A DNA stretch of 35,255 nucleotides from assembly GCA_003155495.1 (NCBI GenBank), contig PMDB01000112.1:1-35255 (forward strand), written 5' to 3'. The notes under the pieces are model-generated. The model was not told the origin of the DNA, did no database searches, and saw nothing but the letters and a program-made list of their open reading frames with translations. The DNA is from Ignavibacteriota bacterium. GTDB lineage: Bacteria; Bacteroidota; Ignavibacteria; UBA10030. The position numbers and the translations under genes were made by a program. This document shows, one piece after another, positions 2,428-11,596 of this stretch (its first letter is position 1; each line of letters begins with the position of its first letter).

Positions 2428-2446
2428 GGTAGTGGGGTCTTTTGAA
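2428..2446 (+). repeat. E1 left terminal inverted repeat
   Basis: GGTAGTGGGGTCTTTTGAA, a perfect inverse match to 6412-6430. It shares GGTAGTGGG and CTTTGAA-like ends with the E2 repeat. Confidence 0.92.
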
Positions 2447-2550
2447 TGTTGAAAGTGGAGTTGATTATATCCATATTAAGGTATCAAAAAGCTTCTTCTT
2501 TGATTATTTTTGGGTTATATTTTTCTTTTCAAAAATATTGCGAGGTTAAT

Positions 2551-2688
2551 ATGGGTAAATCAAACAAGACTACATCTGCTCCTGCACCGGCTCCAAAACC
2601 AGCAGCACCACCTCCGGTTAATATACCAAAAGTCGATCCGAATGTATTGACAAAATCAATTACATCCGTGACTATTAAAAAGAGATAA
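2551..2688 (+). CDS. 45-residue Pro/Ala-rich peptide of E1
   Basis: The start is set at ATG 2551 because GCGAGG lies 6-10 nt upstream. An in-frame ATG at 2446 next to the inverted repeat has no SD. The peptide has a basic start (MGKSNKTT), a Pro/Ala-rich linker (APAPAPKPAAPPPVNIP) and a hydrophilic end. The composition resembles small tail-fibre or virion-associated linker proteins, but no function can be given. Its 3' end overlaps the convergent membrane gene by 14 nt. Confidence 0.5.
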   Translation: MGKSNKTTSAPAPAPKPAAPPPVNIPKVDPNVLTKSITSVTIKKR

Positions 2689-3160
2689 ACCATTTCAACA
2701 GAAAGAACATTTCCGTTATAAAGCATATTATCATTAAGATGGAAATCCATACCTTCCAGTTTACTAAAAACTGGTTGTTGGTAAATGCTTCTCCGGCTCG
2801 AATAAGAATGTCGGTTTTGAATTGAAATTCATCCAAAGAATAGAATTCTTCATGTAGAATTTTTGGATGAAGCAATTTAAGAGAACCAACGGCTTTGGTC
2901 GCAAGTCCAGAAATTATTGCACCGACAAATAATATCATTGAACAATAAAACCATTTCGACGAGAAATTGACGGTATAATGTGTAGAAATAAAAGCTATCA
3001 ATGCAAGAGTAACGCTGGATATCCATCCTAAAAGTTTGTCGATTCCACCGTCTATCGCATTAGAGCGATTTATACACCAATCATACGATTTCAGTGCAAT
3101 TTCATAAGCAGGTTTTATGTATGGGTATTGTTCTTCTATTACATTTTTTTTCTTATCCAT
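2675..3160 (-). CDS. E1 cargo: three-helix membrane protein (SLATT-like layout), unknown function
   Basis: The 161-residue product has a charged N-terminal helix (residues ~1-42) and membrane segments at about 43-65, 72-95 and 137-160. The last two are separated by a cytoplasmic helical segment (HPKILHEEFYSLDEFQFKTD). N-terminal helix plus two to three membrane helices recalls SLATT-type effector proteins of bacterial conflict systems, but no diagnostic motif is visible. The start is well supported by TAGGAGG 5 nt before ATG 3160. Expression appears to be gated by a terminator/antiterminator switch immediately upstream (3168-3300). Confidence 0.7.
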   Translation of the reverse strand: MDKKKNVIEEQYPYIKPAYEIALKSYDWCINRSNAIDGGIDKLLGWISSVTLALIAFISTHYTVNFSSKWFYCSMILFVGAIISGLATKAVGSLKLLHPKILHEEFYSLDEFQFKTDILIRAGEAFTNNQFLVNWKVWISILMIICFITEMFFLLKWFISF

Positions 3161-3167
3161 GATTACC

Positions 3168-3300
3168 TCCTAAAATAAAAATGCTCAATTCTTGGATTAA
3201 GAGTTGAGCATTTCGATGATACTTGATTAAGAGTTCGCTGGTCGCTGAAGATCGCTGTGTACGGTGAGCCTTTATACCTTGTGCTTAGTCATGCTCAACT
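3168..3300 (-). promoter_or_regulatory. Predicted transcription-attenuation switch ahead of the E1 membrane protein
   Basis: On the minus strand, AAATGCTCAACTCTT (3213-3199) pairs with AAGAATTGAGCATTT (3193-3179), followed by TTATTTTA: a strong terminator just before the SD and ATG 3160. Upstream, AGTTGAGCAT (3300-3291) is perfectly complementary, over 10 nt, to the terminator's 5' arm (3202-3211), so it can act as an antiterminator. A six-codon ORF (MTKHKV) starts at 3292 inside that antiterminator strand. Between the arms lies about 80 nt with three AGCGA copies. I do not recognise a known riboswitch class. Confidence 0.65.
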
Positions 3301-3307
3301 ACCTTGA

Positions 3308-3336
3308 AAGATATGTCATTGGAAATCAATTGTCAA
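3308..3336 (-). promoter_or_regulatory. Promoter for the attenuated E1 membrane-protein gene
   Basis: On the minus strand TTGACA (3336-3331) and TATCTT (3313-3308) are 17 nt apart. The predicted start near 3301 would put the antiterminator strand 3300-3291 at the very 5' end of the RNA. The -35 box is perfect; the -10 box matches 4 of 6. Confidence 0.55.
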
Positions 3337-3345
3337 TCTCTTTTT

Positions 3346-3939
3346 TCATCTATTGGTTTCTTTCGTAGAAGAGGCGGCTTTCTGTTCTGATGGAGTGTCT
3401 GAATATTTCCAACTTGCGGGAATCCATTGGAGATTTGCTCGATAATAATAGCTCATACTATGAACTTTTTCCAAAGACGAGCGAATATTCGCATTATCAG
3501 AACTATAAATTCTGTCATAAATTTTATGTTCCATATCATAACTTGCAAATTTGTCGCTCCTGAAATTCGTTGCCTCGTCAATAAGCTTTAATGATTGTTT
3601 ATCAAGAAAAAAGGATTCAAAATTCTGAATATCTTTATCGTTGCCGGATTGAATCGAATTTGCCTCAATCTCTATTTTCTTTAGTCCCATAGTCGCATCA
3701 AATCTGTATGTAACAATACCCCTGATATTAGCACCATGCAAATATTCTTCATATTCCAGTTTGTCAGACTCCATATTGTATGGCATCGTTTTGTAAAGAG
3801 ATTGAACTTCGGTCATCGACATTCCCCAAACTGCTCCATTATATATTTTCGGTTTGGAAGCAATATTTTTGATGTTGCAATGTATTGACATTGCTATTAA
3901 TACTATGACAACGAGAATAATCAGGAATGTCTTTTTCAT
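3346..3939 (-). CDS. E1 cargo: membrane-anchored or exported protein, unknown function
   Basis: The 197-residue protein has a hydrophobic N-terminus (residues 4-20) ending in MSIHC. The Cys at 21 could be a weak lipobox, otherwise the segment is an uncleaved anchor. The rest is soluble: NGAVWGMSMTEVQSLY at ~34-49 resembles the W-G-[MT]-[ST]-x-x-[ED]-V/[AL] opening repeat often seen in small periplasmic proteins of Gram-negative bacteria. The tail is hydrophilic, rich in Ser, Thr and Lys. The SD is AAGGTAG upstream of ATG 3939. It starts 18 nt after the transposase stop on the same strand, so it may be read from the transposase transcript. Confidence 0.6.
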   Translation of the reverse strand: MKKTFLIILVVIVLIAMSIHCNIKNIASKPKIYNGAVWGMSMTEVQSLYKTMPYNMESDKLEYEEYLHGANIRGIVTYRFDATMGLKKIEIEANSIQSGNDKDIQNFESFFLDKQSLKLIDEATNFRSDKFASYDMEHKIYDRIYSSDNANIRSSLEKVHSMSYYYRANLQWIPASWKYSDTPSEQKAASSTKETNR

Positions 3940-3957
3940 ATTATGACTACCTTTTGA

Positions 3958-4800
3958 TTACGCCGCTTTTCTTTCTATGTTATTAGAATTTAATAAATCA
4001 TTCCAATTCCAAAGTCTATTTGTGATCTTCGCCTGCATCGCTGGTGTCACTCTTAATGAACTATGAATTCTCATAAAGTTGTAATGGAAGAAATGTAATG
4101 CGATAGCGGCTTTATGATTCTCTAATTTCTTGCTGAATGCGTTTGTTAATCTTGTAAGCCGTCGCATGTTCATTCTCATAGTAAGATTTTGTCTCTCAAT
4201 ATGCGAAGTACTGATTCGCTTCTTTTGGGGATCGCCTAATATTATTCTAAGAGAAGTAGAGACTATCTTGGCAGGGCTATACCGTTTTTCTCCCCTGAAT
4301 TCTTCTGCATAGTTCTTGTGAACCTGTCCATAATCAATATCTTCACCGAATACACGGTCAACGGCTTCATTGTATGCGCTGAAAGCATCTGTAGAAAGTT
4401 GAAAGCGGTTACTAACTCGGAATTGCAAATCCTTTATGATCGTTGTTGCATTTTCTAATGTTCGTTTCCCTACAAGTGAAGAAATAACAAGCTTAGTGTC
4501 TGAATCCATCGCAACAAATACATATTGATCGCCTACTTTTCCAATTCGTCTTTCTTCTTCTGTGCATTCCTTTTGTTTCTTTCCGACATATCCCCAAATC
4601 TCATCCATCTGAACAAAGTTACATTTAAGATTGACTAATTCGGAGTCGAGAATCTCACTGGCTTTCTCTCCATATTCACAGAGAACGCGAATAATAGCTC
4701 TCTTCGTGATTCCTGTGATTCTTTCGATTGAGCGGATACTTAAACCTTCTACAAGGTGTGTCAAAACAAGTTCTTTCTTTTTATTTGATAATACGTTCAT
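3958..4800 (-). CDS. E1 transposase, IS1-type DDE
   Basis: The 280-residue enzyme would cut and join the E1 ends. Residues ~1-45 form an HTH (EGLSIRSIERITGITKRAII). The likely catalytic triad is Asp66 (QMDEIWGYVGKKQK), Asp138 (LSTDAF) and Glu202 (SHIERQNLTMRM), in the motif context of IS1-family transposases. The C-terminal part (FHYNFMRIHSSLR) is also typical. The start is set at ATG 4800 by the SD AAGGAGAAAGCA; an ATG at 4875 would run through the conserved leader hairpins. Unlike classic IS1 (insA/insB frameshift), it is one intact ORF. Its E2 homologue starts at the same residue. Confidence 0.9.
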   Translation of the reverse strand: MNVLSNKKKELVLTHLVEGLSIRSIERITGITKRAIIRVLCEYGEKASEILDSELVNLKCNFVQMDEIWGYVGKKQKECTEEERRIGKVGDQYVFVAMDSDTKLVISSLVGKRTLENATTIIKDLQFRVSNRFQLSTDAFSAYNEAVDRVFGEDIDYGQVHKNYAEEFRGEKRYSPAKIVSTSLRIILGDPQKKRISTSHIERQNLTMRMNMRRLTRLTNAFSKKLENHKAAIALHFFHYNFMRIHSSLRVTPAMQAKITNRLWNWNDLLNSNNIERKAA

Positions 4801-4833
4801 TGCTTTCTCCTTAATTTGGGTCTTGACTTTGAA

Positions 4834-4923
4834 CCCGCAATGAACGATATTTCTAACAGGTCGTTGCTCGTTCAAGCGGGCAATGGTTTTAGAAGCCGTG
4901 GGTGTTTCTGCACTTACGGCTTC
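4834..4923 (-). ncRNA. Structured leader between HTH and transposase genes of E1
   Basis: Two hairpins on the minus strand. The first is GAAGCCGT/ACGGCTTC (4923-4916 with 4899-4892, 16-nt loop). The second has an outer stem CCCGC/GCGGG (4880-4876 with 4838-4834) and an inner stem TGAACGA/TCGTTCA (4874-4868 with 4847-4841). The E2 leader at 10099-10191 keeps both hairpins, the apical-loop sequence and a compensatory pair in the first stem. The likely role is control of transposase expression; a DNA-level role cannot be excluded. Confidence 0.65.
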
Positions 4924-4933
4924 GTTATTTATA

Positions 4934-5131
4934 CTACTTTTGTATTTCTTTCCATCTCTCTATCTCTTCGTTACTTATCAATGTTAATGACTTGAACTTA
5001 TAGGCAGTCATTTTTCCCCAAGACAGATAATTACGAATAGAACTTGGCTCTATACCTAAAATCTTAGCCGTTTCTTTAATCGTAAAGAACTGTGAACCGT
5101 CTGCAATTTTCAATTCTTTTGTCTTTTTCAT
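4934..5131 (-). CDS. E1 small HTH protein (excisionase/MerR-like, HTH_17)
   Basis: The 65-residue protein is almost entirely one winged-HTH unit: FFTIKETAKILGIEPSSIRNYLSWGKMTAYKF, then SLTLISNEEIERWKE. This is the pattern of HTH_17 / excisionase-like DNA-binding proteins. The E2 protein at 9895-10092 aligns along its full length. It lies directly upstream of the transposase in both elements, so it is probably a repressor or an accessory factor for transposition. Its promoter puts the RNA start at or next to the ATG, so it should be leaderless. A 5-bp inverted repeat inside the promoter is a candidate autoregulatory operator. Confidence 0.85.
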   Translation of the reverse strand: MKKTKELKIADGSQFFTIKETAKILGIEPSSIRNYLSWGKMTAYKFKSLTLISNEEIERWKEIQK

Positions 5132-5137
5132 ATGTTT

Positions 5138-5166
5138 AATATACTACATAGAGTATGTATTGTCAA
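5138..5166 (-). promoter_or_regulatory. Leaderless HTH promoter of E1 with operator-like inverted repeat
   Basis: TTGACA (5166-5161), a 17-nt spacer and TATATT (5143-5138) lie 7 nt before ATG 5131. Within the spacer is ATACT-N6-AGTAT (5141-5156). E2 has ATACA-N6-TGTAT at the same place, that is, both half-sites changed together. Confidence 0.75.
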
Positions 5167-5247
5167 GTGAAATCGTAATTATTTTTCACTTTTCTTTCTC
5201 AAAGAAAATACCTATATTTATATAAGCCCGTTGTGAAGCGGGCGGGA

Positions 5248-5319
5248 TTATATTATAGCACGAGCACGAATCGTGAATCCGGCAAAAGAGTCTACGATTC
5301 CGCTCCAGTTGTTTCTCAT
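5248..5319 (-). CDS. E1 23-residue leader-type ORF conserved with E2
   Basis: Too short for ordinary gene calling, but it has a very strong SD (AAAGGAGGGTGAT) and starts at ATG 5319. The product is MRNNWSGIVDSFAGFTIRA plus RAII. E2 has an ORF of exactly the same length (72 nt) in the same place with a related core: FAGFTIRARAII here, FSGTTHKARGII in E2. The DNA also contains GAATCGT...ACGATTC, which can form a hairpin, and a GCCCG/CGGGC hairpin follows the stop. It could be a leader peptide, a small regulator, or the translated part of a structured RNA. Confidence 0.55.
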   Translation of the reverse strand: MRNNWSGIVDSFAGFTIRARAII

Positions 5320-5362
5320 ATCACCCTCCTTTCTTATAGGTTCTTGGTTTTTGTTTACTAAG

Positions 5363-5396
5363 CCCGTTACCGACTGCAATCGGGACGGGTTTTTTA
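5363..5396 (+). terminator. Terminator facing away from the E1 core genes
   Basis: CCCGT (5363) pairs with ACGGG (5389) and an inner CCGA with TCGG, followed by seven T (5390-5396). It would stop plus-strand transcripts that run antisense to the 23-codon ORF. E2 has an equivalent terminator at 9657-9679 in the matching relative orientation. Confidence 0.75.
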
Positions 5397-5410
5397 TTGC
5401 TTTAAATATA

Positions 5411-5496
5411 GCTATGGAATAGGGGATAAGAACTGATGAAAGGATATATAGAACCGCTATGGAACTACTATGGAACTAACTTTAATGGTTCCATAG
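5411..5496. repeat. CTATGGAAC repeat cluster in E1
   Basis: GCTATGGAAT (5411), GCTATGGAAC (5456) and ACTATGGAAC (5467) are direct copies, and GTTCCATAGT (from 5488) is an inverted copy forming a 9-bp hairpin with 5468-5476. There is no T-run on the minus strand, so it is a poor terminator for the gene ending at 5498. It may be a protein-binding array. Confidence 0.5.
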
Positions 5497-5497
5497 T

Positions 5498-5902
5498 CTA
5501 TTGTTTAACTTTTTTTAGGTAAGAATTTCTTAGGTTGTCAATCATCCGAAGTCTTGATTTTCCAGTCAAATCTTGATAAAAGAGCTTAACGGCTTCAACT
5601 GCAATGCCCCTCTTACTGATCTTCTTTTTTTGATTAGATTTCTGCTTTTTGTATTGTTTTGTACACCAAGTTACCGCATCATGAACTTTATTTTCTTCTC
5701 TCATTTCTTTCTCTTTTTGTAACCTTGCTTGACGTTCTCTCTCTTTTAATTCGCCTTGAATCAGATAGTAATCATCTTGGCTTGCATTATCCAAAGAATT
5801 GAAATTCCCGCCCAATTCAAGATATTTTTCCCGAAGTTGTTCATCGTCGATTTTAGCATACTTTTCGGTTAGCAGTCTATATCTTAGTTGGTTCAATGGC
5901 AT
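5498..5902 (-). CDS. E1 cargo: 134-residue basic protein, unknown function
   Basis: The start is placed at ATG 5902 (MPLNQLRYRLLTEKYAKID). A TTG at 5923 lies within a terminator-like hairpin and is less likely. The protein is highly charged and helical: a Glu/Arg/Lys coiled-coil stretch (QGELKERERQARLQKEKEMREE) is followed by a basic region (KKQKSNQKKKISKRG) and a C-terminal helix. The basic, coiled-coil character suggests nucleic-acid binding, but no family is recognised. It is preceded by its own promoter and by a terminator hairpin. Confidence 0.5.
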   Translation of the reverse strand: MPLNQLRYRLLTEKYAKIDDEQLREKYLELGGNFNSLDNASQDDYYLIQGELKERERQARLQKEKEMREENKVHDAVTWCTKQYKKQKSNQKKKISKRGIAVEAVKLFYQDLTGKSRLRMIDNLRNSYLKKVKQ

Positions 5903-5915
5903 CTCTAATAGCAAA

Positions 5916-5950
5916 AAAGGCAATCACACTCTGAGAGTATGATCGCCTTT
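5916..5950 (-). terminator. Terminator/attenuator hairpin upstream of the 134-residue gene
   Basis: On the minus strand AAAGGCgATCAtACTC pairs with GAGTgTGATtGCCTTT, followed by six T, 14 nt before ATG 5902. No gene ends upstream on this strand, so it probably attenuates the 134-residue gene. A weak competing segment (GGAGTAT, 6020-6014) is complementary to part of its 5' arm. Confidence 0.65.
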
Positions 5951-5994
5951 ATCCGTTCAATTAGTACGTGGCAAGATGGTTTTTTCTTATATTA

Positions 5995-6050
5995 TAGTAT
6001 CTTGTAGTATCTTATACTCCAATAATAGAAACATGGTGTCTTAAAGTCAA
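5995..6050 (-). promoter_or_regulatory. Promoter and direct repeats upstream of the 134-residue E1 gene
   Basis: Minus-strand TTGACT (6050-6045) and TATTAT (6027-6022) are separated by 17 nt. Just downstream are two copies of TAGTATCTT on the plus strand (5995-6003 and 6005-6013), spaced 10 bp apart, possibly an operator. Confidence 0.5.
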
Positions 6051-6070
6051 ACTAATTAAGGGATTGTCTT

Positions 6071-6316
6071 ATGATTACTCTGGAAAACTTTAATCCAAAA
6101 CCCCATATACCTATGGAAAAACTTCCTCTTATCAATTATTCCCTTTTGCTCGGTACCTTAGCATCTGTTCAGGCTTTAGATGCCCATATAATCCATCTTA
6201 GTCACCAGTTAGATAATGCCAAAGAGATCGGAACCATTGAAAAGGAATTGAAAGAAAAATACCAAAAATGCGCTGACGAAATAAAGATTCAGCTTTTTTC
6301 TCTTTATGGTTCATAG
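6071..6316 (+). CDS. E1 cargo: 81-residue helical protein, unknown function
   Basis: ATG 6071 follows AAGGGA. Residues ~20-40 are moderately hydrophobic (INYSLLLGTLASVQALDAHI), and the rest is an amphipathic or coiled-coil helix (EKELKEKYQKCADEIKIQLF). No family is recognised. It is transcribed toward the right end of E1, divergently from the 134-residue gene. A weak AACAGA/TCTGTT hairpin follows at about 6330. Confidence 0.5.
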   Translation: MITLENFNPKPHIPMEKLPLINYSLLLGTLASVQALDAHIIHLSHQLDNAKEIGTIEKELKEKYQKCADEIKIQLFSLYGS

Positions 6317-6411
6317 ACTCTTTTATGAGTAACAGAACACCTCTGTTGCTTATTATTGGCAAGTCTAAGATATTGACTGAATGTCTTTTTCGCCTATTTT
6401 GCTTGTTCTGT

Positions 6412-6430
6412 TTCAAAAGACCCCACTACC
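6412..6430 (-). repeat. E1 right terminal inverted repeat
   Basis: TTCAAAAGACCCCACTACC, the exact inverse of 2428-2446. Confidence 0.92.
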
Positions 6431-6438
6431 AAAATTTT
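6431..6438. repeat. Central AAAATTTT shared by E1 and E2
   Basis: A single 8-bp copy separates the right end of E1 from the left end of E2. Together with CCCACTACC and GGTAGTGGG it forms a perfect 26-bp palindrome (6422-6447). It serves as the target duplication for both elements. Confidence 0.9.
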
Positions 6439-6454
6439 GGTAGTGGGCTACTTT
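6439..6454 (+). repeat. E2 left terminal inverted repeat
   Basis: GGTAGTGGGCTACTTT, an exact inverse of 11573-11588. Confidence 0.9.
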
Positions 6455-6710
6455 GAATAACTCCGCCCAAAATAAAAACTTACTTTTTGAGCAAGAAAAG
6501 GAATTTAGACGGTTTGAACTCTCGAATATTGACCAAAAAATACTAAATAAGTATTTCCCCGTTAAAGAAGGGTATAATTTTAATAGATTGTTTGCATTAC
6601 AAATCCTTTTAGAGTTTAAAAAAATCAATACTCTACTTGAGGAGTTGAATGGTCATTATAACAACTCCGGCAATAGTAGCAAAAACTCCAAGAAAAGTAG
6701 CAAGGGTTAA
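6453..6710 (+). CDS. Possible E2 ORF starting inside the terminal repeat
   Basis: TTG 6453 overlaps the end of the inverted repeat and opens 85 codons. The first ~65 residues look protein-like (LLFEQEKEFRRFELSNIDQK, LFALQILLEFKKINTLLEEL). The Ser/Asn/Lys-rich tail is the opposite strand of the convergent membrane gene, which it overlaps by 78 nt. No clear SD and no alternative ATG. Possibly real, function unknown. Confidence 0.35.
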   Translation: MNNSAQNKNLLFEQEKEFRRFELSNIDQKILNKYFPVKEGYNFNRLFALQILLEFKKINTLLEELNGHYNNSGNSSKNSKKSSKG

Positions 6711-6914
6711 CACGATGTTTAACCATAATATTCTTTTTGACAATCCCTCGTTAGATTTTGCGGTTGACTCCATTGATACTCGTAACGAATCAAGTTTGCC
6801 GTCGAGTTCTCGGATTGTTTTGACAAATGCAGTATGCCAATATATGGCAGAACCAAGTCCAGACTCGGCTACGAGGTCTTCTATCTCTTTTTCAAAGAGT
6901 TTTTTAGCATCCAT
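6633..6914 (-). CDS. E2 cargo: 93-residue protein with C-terminal membrane helix
   Basis: The start is placed at ATG 6914 (MDAKKLFEKEIEDLVAES), with AAAGGA upstream. An upstream ATG at 6980 has no SD. The N-terminal ~60 residues are charged and helical (a coiled coil, TIRELDGKLDSLRVSMES), and residues ~65-91 are a strongly hydrophobic segment (LNIVLTLATFLGVFATIAGV). The layout is that of a small tail-anchored membrane protein, such as holin-like or effector-type proteins, but no specific family is visible. Confidence 0.6.
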   Translation of the reverse strand: MDAKKLFEKEIEDLVAESGLGSAIYWHTAFVKTIRELDGKLDSLRVSMESTAKSNEGLSKRILWLNIVLTLATFLGVFATIAGVVIMTIQLLK

Positions 6915-6943
6915 GTTATAATCCTTTGATTTTATGATTAGGA

Positions 6944-7195
6944 ATGAAAAACGATAATAATAAAACATTAATGTTCGCAATTAGCAACAGTCTTAGTAAG
7001 CCTGAAGCTATCAGTTTTGCCCGTACAATGAACGGCGGGGACAGGTGGTATATTACCAAAGTTTTCGAGAACCCCAAAGCCCGCCACATTGAAGACAGAG
7101 AACGATGGGTAGTAGTTCGAGATGTTAGAAAAGGCGAAATTGTGCCGAATGGATATGCGTTGTTTGTGAAGAGGCAAAATTTATTAGAAAATTAG
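6944..7195 (+). CDS. E2 cargo: 83-residue protein, unknown function
   Basis: ATG 6944 immediately follows TAGGA, which is too close for ideal initiation. An in-frame ATG at 6971 (MFAISNSLSK) is an alternative start. The sequence looks globular (FARTMNGGDRWYITKVFE, RERWVVVRDVRKGEIVPNGY) with a C-terminal VPNGYALFVKRQN. No family is recognised. It overlaps the convergent toxin gene by 12 nt. Confidence 0.5.
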   Translation: MKNDNNKTLMFAISNSLSKPEAISFARTMNGGDRWYITKVFENPKARHIEDRERWVVVRDVRKGEIVPNGYALFVKRQNLLEN

Positions 7196-7600
7196 ATCAA
7201 ATATTTCTGGCGGAATATCTTCCTTTATTGATTTTAAACAATCGAGTATTGCTTGTAATTCCCTGCCTATAACCTTATTCTTTAAAAGACTCATTTGTTT
7301 CGATGTTTTTCTACGTTCAAATTCTTCAATCGGCACACTCTCAACAAATTCATATTGAATTATTGACTTGTCTCTATAGAACTCGGTTTGTTGTTTAACA
7401 TAATATACTTTATCATTTTTATTGCAACCTTGCATGTATGGATAATCTCTTTTGTTTGTAGTGGCGGGAACAATTACAACATCTTCGTTGCCTTTATGGT
7501 TTTTATTCAATACTAACAACAATTTATCGCAAGGAATCGGATTATTAGAATAGAAAAACAACTTGTCGTGAAATACTTCTCCCCTTAAATATGAAGGCAT
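7184..7600 (-). CDS. Putative toxin of a Panacea-type pair (MazF/PemK-like barrel)
   Basis: The 138-residue protein begins MPSYLRGEVFHDKLFFY, then DKLLLVLNKN and EDVVIVPATTNK, the strand pattern of MazF/PemK-type SH3-like barrels, which as a family cleave RNA. QTEFYRDKSIIQYEFVESVP and a C-terminal helix (GRELQAILDCLKSI) fit the same fold. It starts 3 nt after the stop of the antitoxin gene, with GGGGAA as SD inside that gene, so the two are translationally coupled. Fold assignment is by pattern only; the catalytic residues are not certain. Confidence 0.6.
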   Translation of the reverse strand: MPSYLRGEVFHDKLFFYSNNPIPCDKLLLVLNKNHKGNEDVVIVPATTNKRDYPYMQGCNKNDKVYYVKQQTEFYRDKSIIQYEFVESVPIEEFERRKTSKQMSLLKNKVIGRELQAILDCLKSIKEDIPPEIFDLIF

Positions 7601-7603
7601 TAT

Positions 7604-8203
7604 TTATTCCCCGTAATTAGCTACAAGTGCCTTCATTTCTTCTATTTTTTCTTTTGCAAGCTCTAAATTTATTGATTTATCCAAATCTGCATATTTAATC
7701 AAATCAATCTTTTTATTTCTTCCTTCTGCTTTTACAGTTCTTGACCAAGGTGTATTAGGTTCATGGGAAGCTTCACTTGCCATCCATGCGGGAGCTTCTT
7801 TAAACATGTCAATAACTTTTTTTAATATTCTTTGTTGTCTCGGTGTAAATACTTTTAAATTTGGAGTTCTCCCTCTCTTAGGATGAAAACCAAATTCTAC
7901 CCCTCTTTTTCCATCTGGTAATGTAAAGATTTCTTTTGAAACACTTAACGAATCTTGCATATATTCTGGTAATATAACATCTTCACCTTTTGTGATTTCT
8001 CTATGGAATTCTGCCGGAACATCTCCCTTTTCCCATGATTCATATTCGAGACTTGTAGCTGGAAGTCCTGTTTCTTCATAGTGCAAATAGTCGAACTTTG
8101 CCAACATTTTATACATCATCATTTTTGTTGGATGTTTTACAGATGAGGAAAAGTAAACGAGGGCTTCTAAGAGAAGTTTCCGATATTTAGGCAAAGTTTT
8201 CAT
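7604..8203 (-). CDS. Panacea-domain (DUF4065, SocA-like) antitoxin
   Basis: The 199-residue protein starts LLLEALVYFSSSVKHPTKMM, then MLAKFDYLHYEETGLPATSL and WEKGDVPAEFHREI, the diagnostic N-terminal layout of Panacea proteins (K-L-x-Y-[ML]-x-D ... G-x-P-[IA] ... GPVP). Near the C-terminus SHEPNTPWSRT matches the conserved S-H-x-x-x-x-W region. Panacea antitoxins are known to neutralise many unrelated toxins by direct binding. Here the partner is the gene at 7184-7600, coupled with a 3-nt gap. The pair could stabilise E2 by post-segregational killing. Confidence 0.8.
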   Translation of the reverse strand: MKTLPKYRKLLLEALVYFSSSVKHPTKMMMYKMLAKFDYLHYEETGLPATSLEYESWEKGDVPAEFHREITKGEDVILPEYMQDSLSVSKEIFTLPDGKRGVEFGFHPKRGRTPNLKVFTPRQQRILKKVIDMFKEAPAWMASEASHEPNTPWSRTVKAEGRNKKIDLIKYADLDKSINLELAKEKIEEMKALVANYGE

Positions 8204-8232
8204 TTATAGGTTGAACGATCAAAGATTAGTGT

Positions 8233-8775
8233 TTAAATTTTGCCTTCGTCCGATTTTAGAGTATCTAAATCTTCAACTTTAAAGCCCGCATTATTCAAAC
8301 ATATATCTCTGAAATAGATTCCACCCGTTCTTCTTATCGTTTCCATGCTCACACCATGCTTATAGGCGGATAATTTCAGAGAGTCTTCAATTTCTTTTTC
8401 AAACGTAAATTCATCGAAGAATTTGAAAGCCCCTTCCTGTATATCATAGGGGTTTGTCATTAGACTACGTTGCTTACACGACGAAAGTAGTTCATCTTTC
8501 TTTTCGTCTATAAATTTTTTCAAACCGCTATCTTCTAAGATCGTTATTCCTTTTGGCAACAGACGGATAGGGGAACCACTGCTATATGTCTTATCCAATC
8601 GCCCGCTTAAATTCGTTAGACGACCATCAAACCCCGAAATAATGTTCCCAAAATCTTCAACTTTTGTCTCAACCCTCGTCAACCTATGAGAAAGATACCA
8701 TGCGCCCGTGATTAAAGCGGCAAGAAGTGTTAGGAGTTTATAAATGCCAATATTAATAACAAAATTTTGTACCAT
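8233..8775 (-). CDS. E2 cargo: 180-residue protein with N-terminal membrane helix and coiled coil
   Basis: A membrane segment at residues ~9-28 (IGIYKLLTLLAALITGAWYL) is followed by a heptad-like region (RVETKVEDFGNIISGFDGRL) and a soluble domain (SPIRLLPKGITILEDSGLKK...). The layout suggests a membrane-tethered soluble domain facing the cytoplasm. No family is recognised. The ATG at 8775 has no clear SD. It lies 29 nt upstream of the antitoxin on the same strand, so it may be the first gene of a three-gene operon. Palindromes overlap its start and promoter region. Confidence 0.6.
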   Translation of the reverse strand: MVQNFVINIGIYKLLTLLAALITGAWYLSHRLTRVETKVEDFGNIISGFDGRLTNLSGRLDKTYSSGSPIRLLPKGITILEDSGLKKFIDEKKDELLSSCKQRSLMTNPYDIQEGAFKFFDEFTFEKEIEDSLKLSAYKHGVSMETIRRTGGIYFRDICLNNAGFKVEDLDTLKSDEGKI

Positions 8776-8834
8776 GACTTTTTTTATGTGTATATAGCCA
8801 CATTCCTATTGCATGCGTACAAATTTTGTACCCA
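8758..8834 (-). promoter_or_regulatory. Two GTACAAA-type palindromes around the start of the toxin-antitoxin operon
   Basis: ACAAAATTTTGT followed by ACC lies at about 8758-8772, overlapping the start of the 180-residue gene. GTACAAATTTTGTAC (perfect, odd centre) lies at about 8818-8833. Two copies of one palindrome bracketing the start region look like an operator pair; the -10 could be TATATA near 8793. Toxin-antitoxin operons are usually autorepressed, which fits. Confidence 0.5.
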
Positions 8835-9152
8835 AGATAAAACACGCAAAACGAGAATTTTTAAAAGAATAACTAATTGATGGTACGTATTGACTTGGTA
8901 AATGTTGCATTCTCGTGTGTAAATAACCGGAAGCTGCACTTCCAATGTATCTTTCAGAATGATACCTCAACCCCATTCACCCATGACCAGTCAGAGAATA
9001 AGAATTATCCATCAAAATAGCAATAGGGAAATATCTGATTTTTGTATCTGTTTTAAAAATCCCCTCAGTAAAGGGTACGGCTTATTTACCGTATATGTTG
9101 AAAAAACTCAATTCACTTGCTTTTATTGGATTGTATTTCTATTCTTTTCATT
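8835..9152. other. Intergenic region of E2 with tandem hairpins, no convincing gene
   Basis: It contains three short inverted repeats: GGAAG/CTTCC (8929-8943), GTATC/GATAC (8947-8965) and TACGG/CCGTA (9076-9093). A 67-codon plus-strand ORF (8959-9162) lacks an SD and overlaps the next gene, so I do not call it. The region could hold a small RNA or the leader of the gene at 9153; nothing is conclusive. Confidence 0.3.
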
Positions 9153-9557
9153 ATGGGAATAGACGGCAAGCATCCAGACAAACCAAAACCCGCTAAATTC
9201 TATATAGATAGTTGCTATAGGGCATATAAAAATGGTATGCCTCCAGAAAAGTACATTGCCGAATTAGAAGACATGTTGAAACGTGCGATTGAGCGCCTAA
9301 TGAGTCAAAATGAAATACTGGCTTCTATAAGACTGGAAGAAATTCGCAATGAAAGATTTATGGGGAAGAAAATTTCACCGGAAAATTTGAAGCTCTACAA
9401 AGAAATTAGAAAAGAATATATAAACCTAAAACAAGAAGCCGGTGAATGTGATTTTAGTACCGCCACAAGAATTGTGGCGAGAAGACACAGAAAACAGTAT
9501 AAAAACCTGTATCCCAATTTTATCAGATGGAAAAATAATTATTGCAAGGAACAATAG
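9153..9557 (+). CDS. E2 cargo: 134-residue basic helical protein, unknown function
   Basis: The start is placed at ATG 9153 (MGIDGKHPDKPKPAKFY). The upstream in-frame extension is hydrophobic and has no SD. The protein is helical and basic (EDMLKRAIERLMSQNEILAS, RIVARRHRKQYKNLYPNFIR). It is close in size and character to the 134-residue protein of E1 next to that element's core, but I see no clear alignment. DNA or RNA binding is possible. A perfect hairpin (9552-9577) overlaps its stop. Confidence 0.5.
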   Translation: MGIDGKHPDKPKPAKFYIDSCYRAYKNGMPPEKYIAELEDMLKRAIERLMSQNEILASIRLEEIRNERFMGKKISPENLKLYKEIRKEYINLKQEAGECDFSTATRIVARRHRKQYKNLYPNFIRWKNNYCKEQ

Positions 9558-9577
9558 CGTTTGCGTAAACACTATTG
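9552..9577. terminator. Hairpin at the end of the 134-residue E2 gene
   Basis: CAATAGcGTTT pairs with AAACaCTATTG around GCGT. The T-run is weak on both sides, so termination is uncertain. Confidence 0.4.
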
Positions 9578-9656
9578 TCTGTTAAGTATAGGCAAAGAAT
9601 AATATTTATAACCCTCCGCATACCTTATCCTCGTTTCGTTATCTTGATTAGCACAT

Positions 9657-9679
9657 AAAAAAGCCCTCACTAAGAGGGC
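9657..9679 (-). terminator. Terminator facing away from the E2 core genes
   Basis: Minus-strand GCCCTC-TTAGT-GAGGGC is followed by six T (9662-9657). It would end transcripts antisense to the 23-codon ORF at 9738-9809, as the terminator at 5363-5396 does in E1. Confidence 0.8.
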
Positions 9680-9737
9680 ATTGTTCCAAAGGGTTAATCG
9701 AAGATGTTTAGACCATCTTCAGAATTAGGAGGTGAAT

Positions 9738-9809
9738 ATGATATACCGAGTTTTCTCTGGCACTACTCACAAAGCCAGAGGTATAATATCGCTCCGATTC
9801 CTTAATTAA
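9738..9809 (+). CDS. E2 23-residue leader-type ORF conserved with E1
   Basis: ATG 9738 follows TTAGGAGGTGAAT, a near-perfect SD. The product is MIYRVFSGTTHKARGIISLR plus FLN, exactly as long as its E1 counterpart and sharing F-[AS]-G-x-T-x-[RK]-A-R-[AG]-I-I. The DNA contains CTCTGGC...GCCAGAG, a 7-bp stem that could make the segment a regulatory hairpin. It lies 85 nt before the HTH gene. Because TATAAT occurs within the conserved end in both elements, part of the conservation could be a promoter rather than a peptide. Confidence 0.55.
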   Translation: MIYRVFSGTTHKARGIISLRFLN

Positions 9810-9860
9810 ATATAGGGAATTATCTTTAAGAAAAAAAGTGAAAAATAGTTACGATTTAAC

Positions 9861-9888
9861 TTGACAAATATACAATATAGTGTATATT
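9861..9888 (+). promoter_or_regulatory. Leaderless HTH promoter of E2 with operator-like inverted repeat
   Basis: TTGACA (9861-9866), a 16-nt spacer and TATATT (9883-9888) are 6 nt before ATG 9895. ATACA-N6-TGTAT (9870-9885) sits between the boxes. About 60 nt upstream, including AGTGAAAAATA and TTACGATTT, is nearly identical in E1. Confidence 0.75.
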
Positions 9889-9894
9889 GTAGAT

Positions 9895-10092
9895 ATGAAA
9901 ACAACGATAAAAATAGACAAACCAAAAGATACTTCATACTTCACGGTGCAAGAAGCCGCCGATGAATTAGGTATCAATACACAAACTATAAGAGATTATC
10001 TTGTAAAAGGCATAATGAAAACTTACAAGTTTAAGACTCTTACTTTGATTAGTAAAGAAGAAGTAAAACAACGGAAGCAAAAACAGAAATAA
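9895..10092 (+). CDS. E2 small HTH protein (excisionase/MerR-like, HTH_17)
   Basis: The start is set at ATG 9895, where the promoter predicts the RNA to begin. An ATG 15 nt upstream lies within the -10 region. The 65-residue protein holds YFTVQEAADELGINTQTIRD, then GIMKTYKFKTLTLISKEEV, which aligns with the whole E1 protein. Such HTH_17 proteins bind DNA as repressors or excision factors. Being first in the HTH-transposase pair and having an inverted repeat in its own promoter, it is most likely an autoregulator. Confidence 0.85.
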   Translation: MKTTIKIDKPKDTSYFTVQEAADELGINTQTIRDYLVKGIMKTYKFKTLTLISKEEVKQRKQKQK

Positions 10093-10098
10093 AATAAC

Positions 10099-10191
10099 GA
10101 ATCCGTAGATACTCGAAATACCTACGGATTCTCAACTCATTACCCGCGTAAACGAGTAACGAACCTATACAAATATCGTTCATTGCGGGTA
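10099..10191 (+). ncRNA. Structured leader between HTH and transposase genes of E2
   Basis: Hairpin 1 is a perfect 10-bp stem, GAATCCGTAG/CTACGGATTC (10099-10108 with 10122-10131). Hairpin 2 has an outer stem TACCCGC/GCGGGTA (10141-10147 with 10185-10191) and an inner stem AACGA/TCGTT (10151-10155 with 10176-10180). In E1 the first stem reads GAAGCCGT/ACGGCTTC: the T-A pair is replaced by G-C. The apical loop (AACGA.CCT.T...AATA) is also kept. Confidence 0.65.
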
Positions 10192-10221
10192 CAAAGTCAA
10201 TAGCCAAGAAAGGGCACTGCA

Positions 10222-11055
10222 ATGAACACATTATCTCTCGAAAAGAAAGTTTTAGTCCTCAACTCCCTCGTTGAAGGCAACTCAATCCGAAGTACTGTCA
10301 GACTCACAGGCGTGAACAAGAAAACTGTCATGCGTTTACTCGTTGAAGCTGGAGAACAAGCGAAAGAAATCCTTGATACTCAAATGGTAGGCATTCAATC
10401 AAGGTATGTGCAGGTAGATGAAATCTGGACTTATGTAGGGAAGAAACAAAAACAACTCACAGAAAATGATTCTAAGGAATTGGGCGATCAATATGTATTT
10501 GTGGCTATGGATGCAGAAACGAAACTTGTTCCCGCCTTCAAAGTAGGGAAGAGAACCTATGGAGTAACAGAATCTTTCATTAAAGATTTACAGTACAGAA
10601 TCAGCACAAGATTCCAGCTTAGTACAGATTCATTCAAACCGTACTTCAATGTAGTCGATTCTATTTTCGGAACTGATATTGATTACGGACAGATTCACAA
10701 AGAGTATAGAGAAGAAGGAAAAGGCGAAAAGCGATACAGTCCCGCTCAAATAATACGAGTCATAATAAACCCATTAATCGGACAGCCGAGTATTAAACAT
10801 ATTTCTACCAGCTTCATTGAACGCCAGAATCTTACAATGAGAATGCAAATGAGAAGATTTACACGATTAACTAATGCGTTTAGTAAGAAGTTAAGAAACT
10901 TAGAATGTGCCGTTGCATTGCATTTCTATCATTACAACTTTATGAGAATTCATTCATCATTGAGAGTAACACCTGCAATGCAAGCGAATGTTACGAGTAC
11001 AATTTGGACATGGGAAAACTTATTACTCGGAACACAGATGAAGAAAGCGGCTTGA
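10222..11055 (+). CDS. E2 transposase, IS1-type DDE
   Basis: The 277-residue homologue of the E1 transposase has the N-terminal HTH (EGNSIRSTVRLTGVNKKTVM) and the likely triad Asp66 (QVDEIWTYVGKKQK), Asp136 (LSTDSF) and Glu200 (SFIERQNLTMRM). The C-terminal FHYHNF-like region reads FYHYNFMRIHSSLR. More than half the residues match E1 by eye. It is intact, with AAAGGG 8-12 nt before ATG 10222. It should act on GGTAGTGGG ends; the slightly different inverted repeats of the two elements may make each enzyme specific for its own ends. Confidence 0.9.
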   Translation: MNTLSLEKKVLVLNSLVEGNSIRSTVRLTGVNKKTVMRLLVEAGEQAKEILDTQMVGIQSRYVQVDEIWTYVGKKQKQLTENDSKELGDQYVFVAMDAETKLVPAFKVGKRTYGVTESFIKDLQYRISTRFQLSTDSFKPYFNVVDSIFGTDIDYGQIHKEYREEGKGEKRYSPAQIIRVIINPLIGQPSIKHISTSFIERQNLTMRMQMRRFTRLTNAFSKKLRNLECAVALHFYHYNFMRIHSSLRVTPAMQANVTSTIWTWENLLLGTQMKKAA

Positions 11056-11125
11056 AGTGTACTCACATTACTATTGTAGCATTACTCACTTCTCGGTACA
11101 TTATAGTGAGGAGAAAGCATACGTT

Positions 11126-11317
11126 ATGAGGAAAAATAATATTAAATACTTTGATCCCGCAGAAGCCGGATTGATTAAACTCAAACAGGTATTACGAAGG
11201 CACAATATAGCTATAGTTAAAGTTGATAATTTACAGCCGTTAAATGAAACGGATGTTATTGTCGGCTTATCAGTTCAGGTTTTTGACAGTTTAAGTTTAG
11301 CTAAAAAATTAAGATAA
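11126..11317 (+). CDS. E2 cargo: 63-residue protein, unknown function
   Basis: ATG 11126 lies 12 nt after AGGAG. The product (MRKNNIKYFDPAEAGLIKLK, then VKVDNLQPLNETDVIVGLSV) looks globular and soluble. No family is recognised. It follows the transposase by 70 nt and may be co-transcribed. Its last 43 nt overlap a convergent small gene. Confidence 0.4.
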   Translation: MRKNNIKYFDPAEAGLIKLKQVLRRHNIAIVKVDNLQPLNETDVIVGLSVQVFDSLSLAKKLR

Positions 11318-11448
11318 ACTTGGAATACTGCGGCATCGTTTACAAGTGTAAGCGCGGTAGTTGTTCCGATAGGTCTTTCACGGTTTAATGTTGAGAAATA
11401 TGCAACGGTCAAATTGCTTGCTACAATATGTTTAGTATTTTCATCCAT
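11275..11448 (-). CDS. E2 cargo: 57-residue protein, unknown function
   Basis: The start is set at ATG 11448 because AAGGGGA lies about 8 nt upstream; the longer frame to 11562 has no SD. The product has ENTKHIVASNLTVAYFSTLN and RPIGTTTALTLVNDAAVFQV. No family is recognised. The 124 nt between it and the right end of E2 holds a GTTCC/GGAAC hairpin and nothing else that I can identify. Confidence 0.45.
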   Translation of the reverse strand: MDENTKHIVASNLTVAYFSTLNRERPIGTTTALTLVNDAAVFQVYLNFLAKLKLSKT

Positions 11449-11572
11449 GATAAATCCCCTTATAGATAGTGAAGTATTTAGTGAATTATTGGCATCACAA
11501 ACATGATAAACATTACACCTAAAAGCAATATAAGTTCCCGAAAGCGGAACGAAGAGACTCATGGAAGAATCT

Positions 11573-11588
11573 AAAGTAGCCCACTACC
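11573..11588 (-). repeat. E2 right terminal inverted repeat
   Basis: AAAGTAGCCCACTACC, the exact inverse of 6439-6454. Confidence 0.9.
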
Positions 11589-11596
11589 AAAATTTT
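11589..11596. repeat. Right copy of the target-site duplication AAAATTTT
   Basis: It abuts the E2 right end and overlaps the next promoter: its last TT are the first two bases of the -35 box TTGACT. Confidence 0.9.

Follow-up and report, generated by a model that had tools for sequence, protein, structure and literature searches.

Can an intrinsic terminator that stands directly before a gene on a mobile element be disarmed by the first bases of the very RNA that it would otherwise end? The question is raised by one locus, chosen by eye from the 35 kb of a window (35,255 nucleotides) that is the entire contig C16 of an Ignavibacteria genome in 119 contigs. Our reading, which we hold tentatively and at slightly less than an even chance, is that this locus comprises a conditional intrinsic terminator, i.e., a transcription attenuator, placed before a 161-codon cargo gene (Table 1).

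Table 1. Coordinates of the leader, its neighbouring genes and the host element in the window; promoter-like sites and the RNA start are predictions
Feature	Position	Strand	Remarks
IS1-related element	2428-6430		19-bp perfect terminal repeats GGTAGTGGGGTCTTTTGAA; flanks AAAATTTT
IS1-related transposase gene	3958-4875	minus	PF03400, 41.2 bits (cut-off 24.1)
197-residue gene	3346-3939	minus	N-terminus like that of an exported protein
Promoter-like site TTGACA-17-TATCTT	3308-3336	minus	10/12 consensus match; TTGACA 3336-3331, 17-nt spacer, TATCTT 3313-3308
Candidate antiterminator strand AGTTGAGCAT	3291-3300	minus	At the predicted RNA 5' end
Second, weaker promoter-like site TTGAGC-16-TATAAA	3271-3298	minus	9/12 match; predicted start ~3264
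Six-codon ORF MTKHKV with stop	3272-3292	minus	ATG 3292-3290, TAA 3274-3272
GCTCA	3265-3269	minus	Early pairing with 3297-3293 gives a weak competing hairpin
AACTCTTAATC	3225-3235	minus	Direct repeat of 3205-3195
Intrinsic terminator hairpin	3178-3214	minus	T-run to 3172
ATGCTCAACT	3202-3211	minus	Common to the terminator (rising arm) and the antiterminator
Shine-Dalgarno AGGAGG of the 161-codon gene	3166-3171	minus	ATG at 3160
161-residue membrane-protein gene	2675-3160	minus	Cargo; no known family

The 161-codon gene lies within an IS1-related element that is delimited by perfect terminal repeats (2428-2446 and 6412-6430), is bordered on both flanks by a duplicated AAAATTTT (2420-2427 and 6431-6438) and contains a transposase gene; these features confirm an earlier, preliminary description of the gene as IS-type cargo. 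The transposase passes the Pfam cut-off, and its NCBIfam IS1 score of 71.3 bits is below the cut-off of 100. On the minus strand the transposase gene is followed by the 197-codon gene, the leader and the 161-codon gene, in that order. The product of the 197-codon gene gave one weak further match among 294 genomes. An 80-codon ORF (2446-2688, plus strand), part of which is rich in alanine and proline, lies close inside the element's left end and runs convergent to the cargo gene.

A second IS1-related element (6439-11588) abuts the first; its ends carry GGTAGTGGGCTACTTTGAA, the inner letters of the other end being slightly different, and AAAATTTT is present before, between and after the two elements (2420-2427, 6431-6438 and 11589-11596). 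The search match for its transposase (10180-11046) reports one TAG inside. The cargo of this second element (7184-8203, minus strand) consists of a gene (7604-8203) encoding a SocA/Panacea antitoxin domain (PF13274), then a 138-codon gene without a Pfam match; the two are probably a toxin-antitoxin pair. A related third element, in a same-genus genome (L041 3379-7804), shares the outer end sequence, has an 8-bp repeat of its own, AAAACGAT, and carries a different cargo that includes a DUF3800 gene.

The preliminary description had placed a strong terminator just before the Shine-Dalgarno of the 161-residue gene, and that is what we find: the hairpin has a 16-bp stem with one C.A mismatch (-14.8 kcal/mol), and its T-run, TTTTATTTT, leads straight into AGGAGG, a motif that only 9 of 449 control ORFs (200 aa or longer) carry. 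This terminator is missing from the list of a stock scanner and was picked up by our own finder. It lies between the start codon and a promoter-like site, the latter recognised by consensus only. The perfect -35 element that was said to start an RNA is indeed present, and the start itself, at 3302-3300, is a prediction only. The promoter-like site begins 9 nt past the stop codon of the 197-codon gene, and the same stretch matches, with one miss (as TTG-N20-TAtcTTTc), the Bacteroidota-type promoter pattern TTG-N20-TAnnTTTG. In 800 kb of same-genus DNA there are, per kb and strand, 0.118 sites that match at 10/12 or better and keep T1, A2 and T6 of the -10 hexamer, and 0.014 sites that fit both promoter models. 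The last promoter-like site listed before the ATG of the 161-codon gene (3216-3188; 8/12) is weak and overlaps the terminator hairpin, so that RNA reaching this gene most likely must cross the terminator.

Another key observation concerns the opposite end of the leader. As had been claimed, the strand at 3300-3291 is an exact complement, in 10/10 nt on the minus strand, of the terminator's 5' arm at 3211-3202; it begins no more than 2 nt from the predicted RNA start, and it pairs with the rising arm better than does the terminator's own falling arm, which has the C.A mismatch. A complement of at least 10 nt to the arm arose with P = 0.00175 when the upstream 130 nt were shuffled (40,000 shuffles), and at a frequency of 0.00085 among 24,612 genomic 130-mers from the same genus; in 800 kb, such a 10-nt complement was found at 0 of 58 strict control terminators (best, 7 nt) and 0 of 298 looser ones (best, 9 nt). 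Shuffling of the leader gave a 10-nt inverted repeat anywhere, with its copies at least 20 nt apart, at P = 0.00365, and an 11-nt direct repeat at P = 0.001. Furthermore, the arm pairing probability of the real leader was equalled by only 2 of 2000 shuffles; the energy cost of freeing the arm, a weaker and modest test, was equalled by 65 of 2000. With 7 strict terminators in the window, the family-wise chance comes closer to 0.01. Taken alone, the complementarity is unlikely to be due to chance; set against this are its selection by eye out of a long window and an energetic margin that is ordinary.

Two trivial sources of the repeat were considered and rejected: a stereotyped terminator stem (in 61 genomes, this is the sole occurrence of a strict 14-bp pattern) and an overused word (AGTTGAGCAT has 2 occurrences on both strands of 800 kb, versus 1.5 for permuted words). 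The 8-mer TTGAGCAT has three copies in the leader, counting either direction, and two more in the remainder of the window, at 802 and 26327; from these sequence repeats, a protein-DNA operator was also considered.

We modelled folding during transcription by following successively longer RNA prefixes, which pass through three stages: a small hairpin sequesters some of the 5' strand (RNA to ~3264), the antiterminator is the best structure from RNA end 3204, and the terminator takes over from RNA end 3180. The antiterminator pairing probability is 0.954-0.976 for RNA ends 3192-3184 and at most 0.005 from 3180 on; with the start set at 3302, its mean is 0.976 at 3192, 0.963 at 3184 and 0.002 at 3180. 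Once the falling arm has been made, stability favours the terminator (-26.0 versus -19.4 kcal/mol), and at equilibrium the full-length RNA adopts the terminator form with a probability of 0.99. Entry into the antiterminator faces a barrier of 6.5-7.7 kcal/mol for RNA ends 3202-3186 and of 14.1 kcal/mol at 3182, and passage from antiterminator to terminator one of 12.0 kcal/mol; these are findpath estimates, i.e., heuristic values that ignore polymerase contacts. A rule-of-thumb rate turns such barriers into times of a fraction of a second for entry and minutes for exit. Taken at face value, the findpath barriers predict that a free 5' strand would lead to readthrough. When the 5' 24 nt are masked in the model (3302-3278), the terminator alone remains. 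The preliminary description had the two structures excluding each other: this layout is real and above chance, the energy-based version of that comparison is weaker, and the modelled folding supports an antiterminated intermediate during synthesis.

The Shine-Dalgarno, on the other hand, fails to separate the terminator and antiterminator states by its own pairing, because it is partly paired in both. In the terminator form, a predicted helix between CTCTTAA (3233-3227, in AACTCTTAATC) and TTAGGAG covers the Shine-Dalgarno; when the antiterminator is forced in the model, part of the Shine-Dalgarno (3170-3168) is paired again.

We hypothesize that the attenuator would operate as a race: according to the computed folds, the first ten RNA bases would pair with the terminator's rising arm before its falling arm exists, and although the full hairpin is more stable, exit from this captured state would be slow relative to transcription. 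With the 5' end free, polymerase would then read through into the 161-codon gene; with the 5' end covered or removed (whether by bound protein, RNA or ribosome or by a downstream start), the terminator would form and the gene would be off. A more specific version, namely a kinetic RNA switch on a transposon whose first ten bases are the antiterminator, with occupancy or trimming of the 5' end, including by a ribosome initiating at the overlapping ATG, turning the cargo off and their absence turning it on, we consider unlikely as a whole. Several observations count against a switch: the searches described below found no homologous leader, the one clear relative of the cargo protein has no leader, and the terminator wins outright at equilibrium.

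The overlapping ATG is that of MTKHKV. This six-codon ORF is real, and of its ATG only the A and T lie in the antiterminator strand. On an RNA from 3302-3300, just 8-10 nt and no Shine-Dalgarno would precede this ATG, so that control by MTKHKV translation is possible but unsupported; AAGG (3305-3302) is at or upstream of the predicted start, and could serve the ORF only on an RNA from further upstream. When 3290-3262 is masked in the model, to imitate a ribosome that has reached the MTKHKV stop codon, the antiterminator can still form at RNA ends 3192 and 3180, though not at 3174. Bearing in mind also that short ATG ORFs are commonplace, we see no support for the proposal that translation initiation at MTKHKV sets the choice; the ORF is, from its sequence, probably incidental.

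The searches for related leaders bear on the strongest competing account. A search of the genome's own sequence returned only the leader itself. In 391 genomes of the class (as a rule, the best 2 candidates of each were scored), 276 gave at least one match with E no higher than 1; these matches were terminator-like or short only, with no homologous leader among them. The best after the window itself, again among the best 2 per genome, is 83% identical over 57 nt around a similar terminator (G004:C22), and a similar terminator stem is also present in G543:C38. The exact 31-nt hairpin pattern and the exact 19-nt 5' pattern were both absent from viral contigs, and plasmids gave no leader match. 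For a covariation comparison of the two helices, these searches thus yielded a single leader.

The cargo protein has a similarly narrow distribution. No match rose over cut-off in Pfam, NCBIfam or PADLOC; a structural model (pLDDT 81.4, from two sequences) gave no fold match with E < 0.001, and the search for solved relatives yielded none, two NusB matches at E 0.1 being taken as chance. No further homologue was found in viral contigs, plasmids or phages. The one clear relative, 36-37% identical, is in the same-genus genome G004 (L003 566-1995); weak matches at L004, L005, L053 (internal stops) and L095 (low score) were left out of use. Upstream of the G004 gene is a transposase gene scoring above the IS1595 cut-offs, and its stop codon is 8 nt from the start of the G004 gene, a gap that leaves no room for a leader; convincing terminal repeats were looked for around this relative, and not found. 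This protein family therefore occurs twice beside a transposase, of two different transposase families, and the leader does not travel with the protein.

Both sets of results suit an alternative that we regard as possible, albeit doubtful: the hairpin would be the ordinary terminator of the unit formed by the transposase and 197-codon genes, the 5' complement would be coincidental, and the 161-codon gene would be weakly expressed by leaky readthrough, which keeps a membrane protein low. About 130 nt separate the start of the hairpin from the stop codon of the 197-codon gene on the same strand, the G004 relative does without a leader, similar single hairpins exist elsewhere in the class, and such terminators are common on IS elements, according to a 2010 survey (PMC2965389). 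Yet this account must accept a complement with a chance of ~0.001-0.002 that, moreover, begins at a predicted promoter start, and that promoter would be pointless for the gene if its sole product ended ~120 nt on.

A promoter-like site and a terminator also enclose the unit expected of a separate small RNA of ~120-130 nt (3302 to ~3172), which would act elsewhere and have the cargo gene merely next to it. The dominance of the terminator form at full length would suit such a product, and the 2010 survey places 2.2% of predicted 5' terminators at annotated small RNAs (PMC2965389). Against this, Rfam gave no match in the leader region at gathering scores, neither to T-box nor to any other family, and at E up to 10 the best was the PyrG leader at 19.3 bits versus 65, which also leaves the leader outside the known riboswitches and T-boxes; the unit is single-copy with no homologue found, its fold z-score is only -2.0 and, on our reading of the structure, mostly due to the terminator, and the T-run is set directly against the Shine-Dalgarno. 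We judge a separate small RNA to be improbable. That RNA instead starts from the second promoter-like site, so that TTGAGC is a -35 element and the RNA begins without the antiterminator strand, we consider highly unlikely, for in spite of its 9/12 match and TATAAA this site's -10 is without the conserved last T, and the first site both scores higher and fits the Bacteroidota-type pattern.

Returning to the conditional terminator, it resembles the terminator/antiterminator attenuators, e.g., trp leaders and riboswitches, in that its 5' leader has an intrinsic terminator immediately ahead of the gene, overlapped by an alternative helix; it differs from them in that the leader has no known sensor domain or found homologue, and in that the antiterminator strand forms the very 5' end predicted for the RNA. 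With ribosome-controlled leader-peptide attenuation it shares a short ORF overlapping the antiterminator strand, but MTKHKV has only six codons, no run of regulatory codons, and no Shine-Dalgarno on the predicted RNA. We know of no studied attenuators in Ignavibacteria.

Naville and Gautheret (2010; PMC2965389) describe many terminators before IS-related genes, and name exapted IS terminators 'mobile attenuators'. The suggestion that this kind of control is rare on IS-type cargo is accordingly doubtful, and a terminator in such a place is, in itself, ordinary; it is the antiterminator candidate that would lift this one above the ordinary. The likeness to 'mobile attenuators' is that a terminator precedes an IS-related gene; here, it is between two internal genes rather than at an outer end, is accompanied by an antiterminator candidate, and was not found repeated. 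If our reading is wrong, the locus has nothing more than a routine terminator and a repeat that arose by chance. If it is right, passenger genes of IS elements can carry their own conditional terminator, the cargo protein would be silent except under a condition, and the design would be a compact one in which the 5' end of the RNA is itself the antiterminator.
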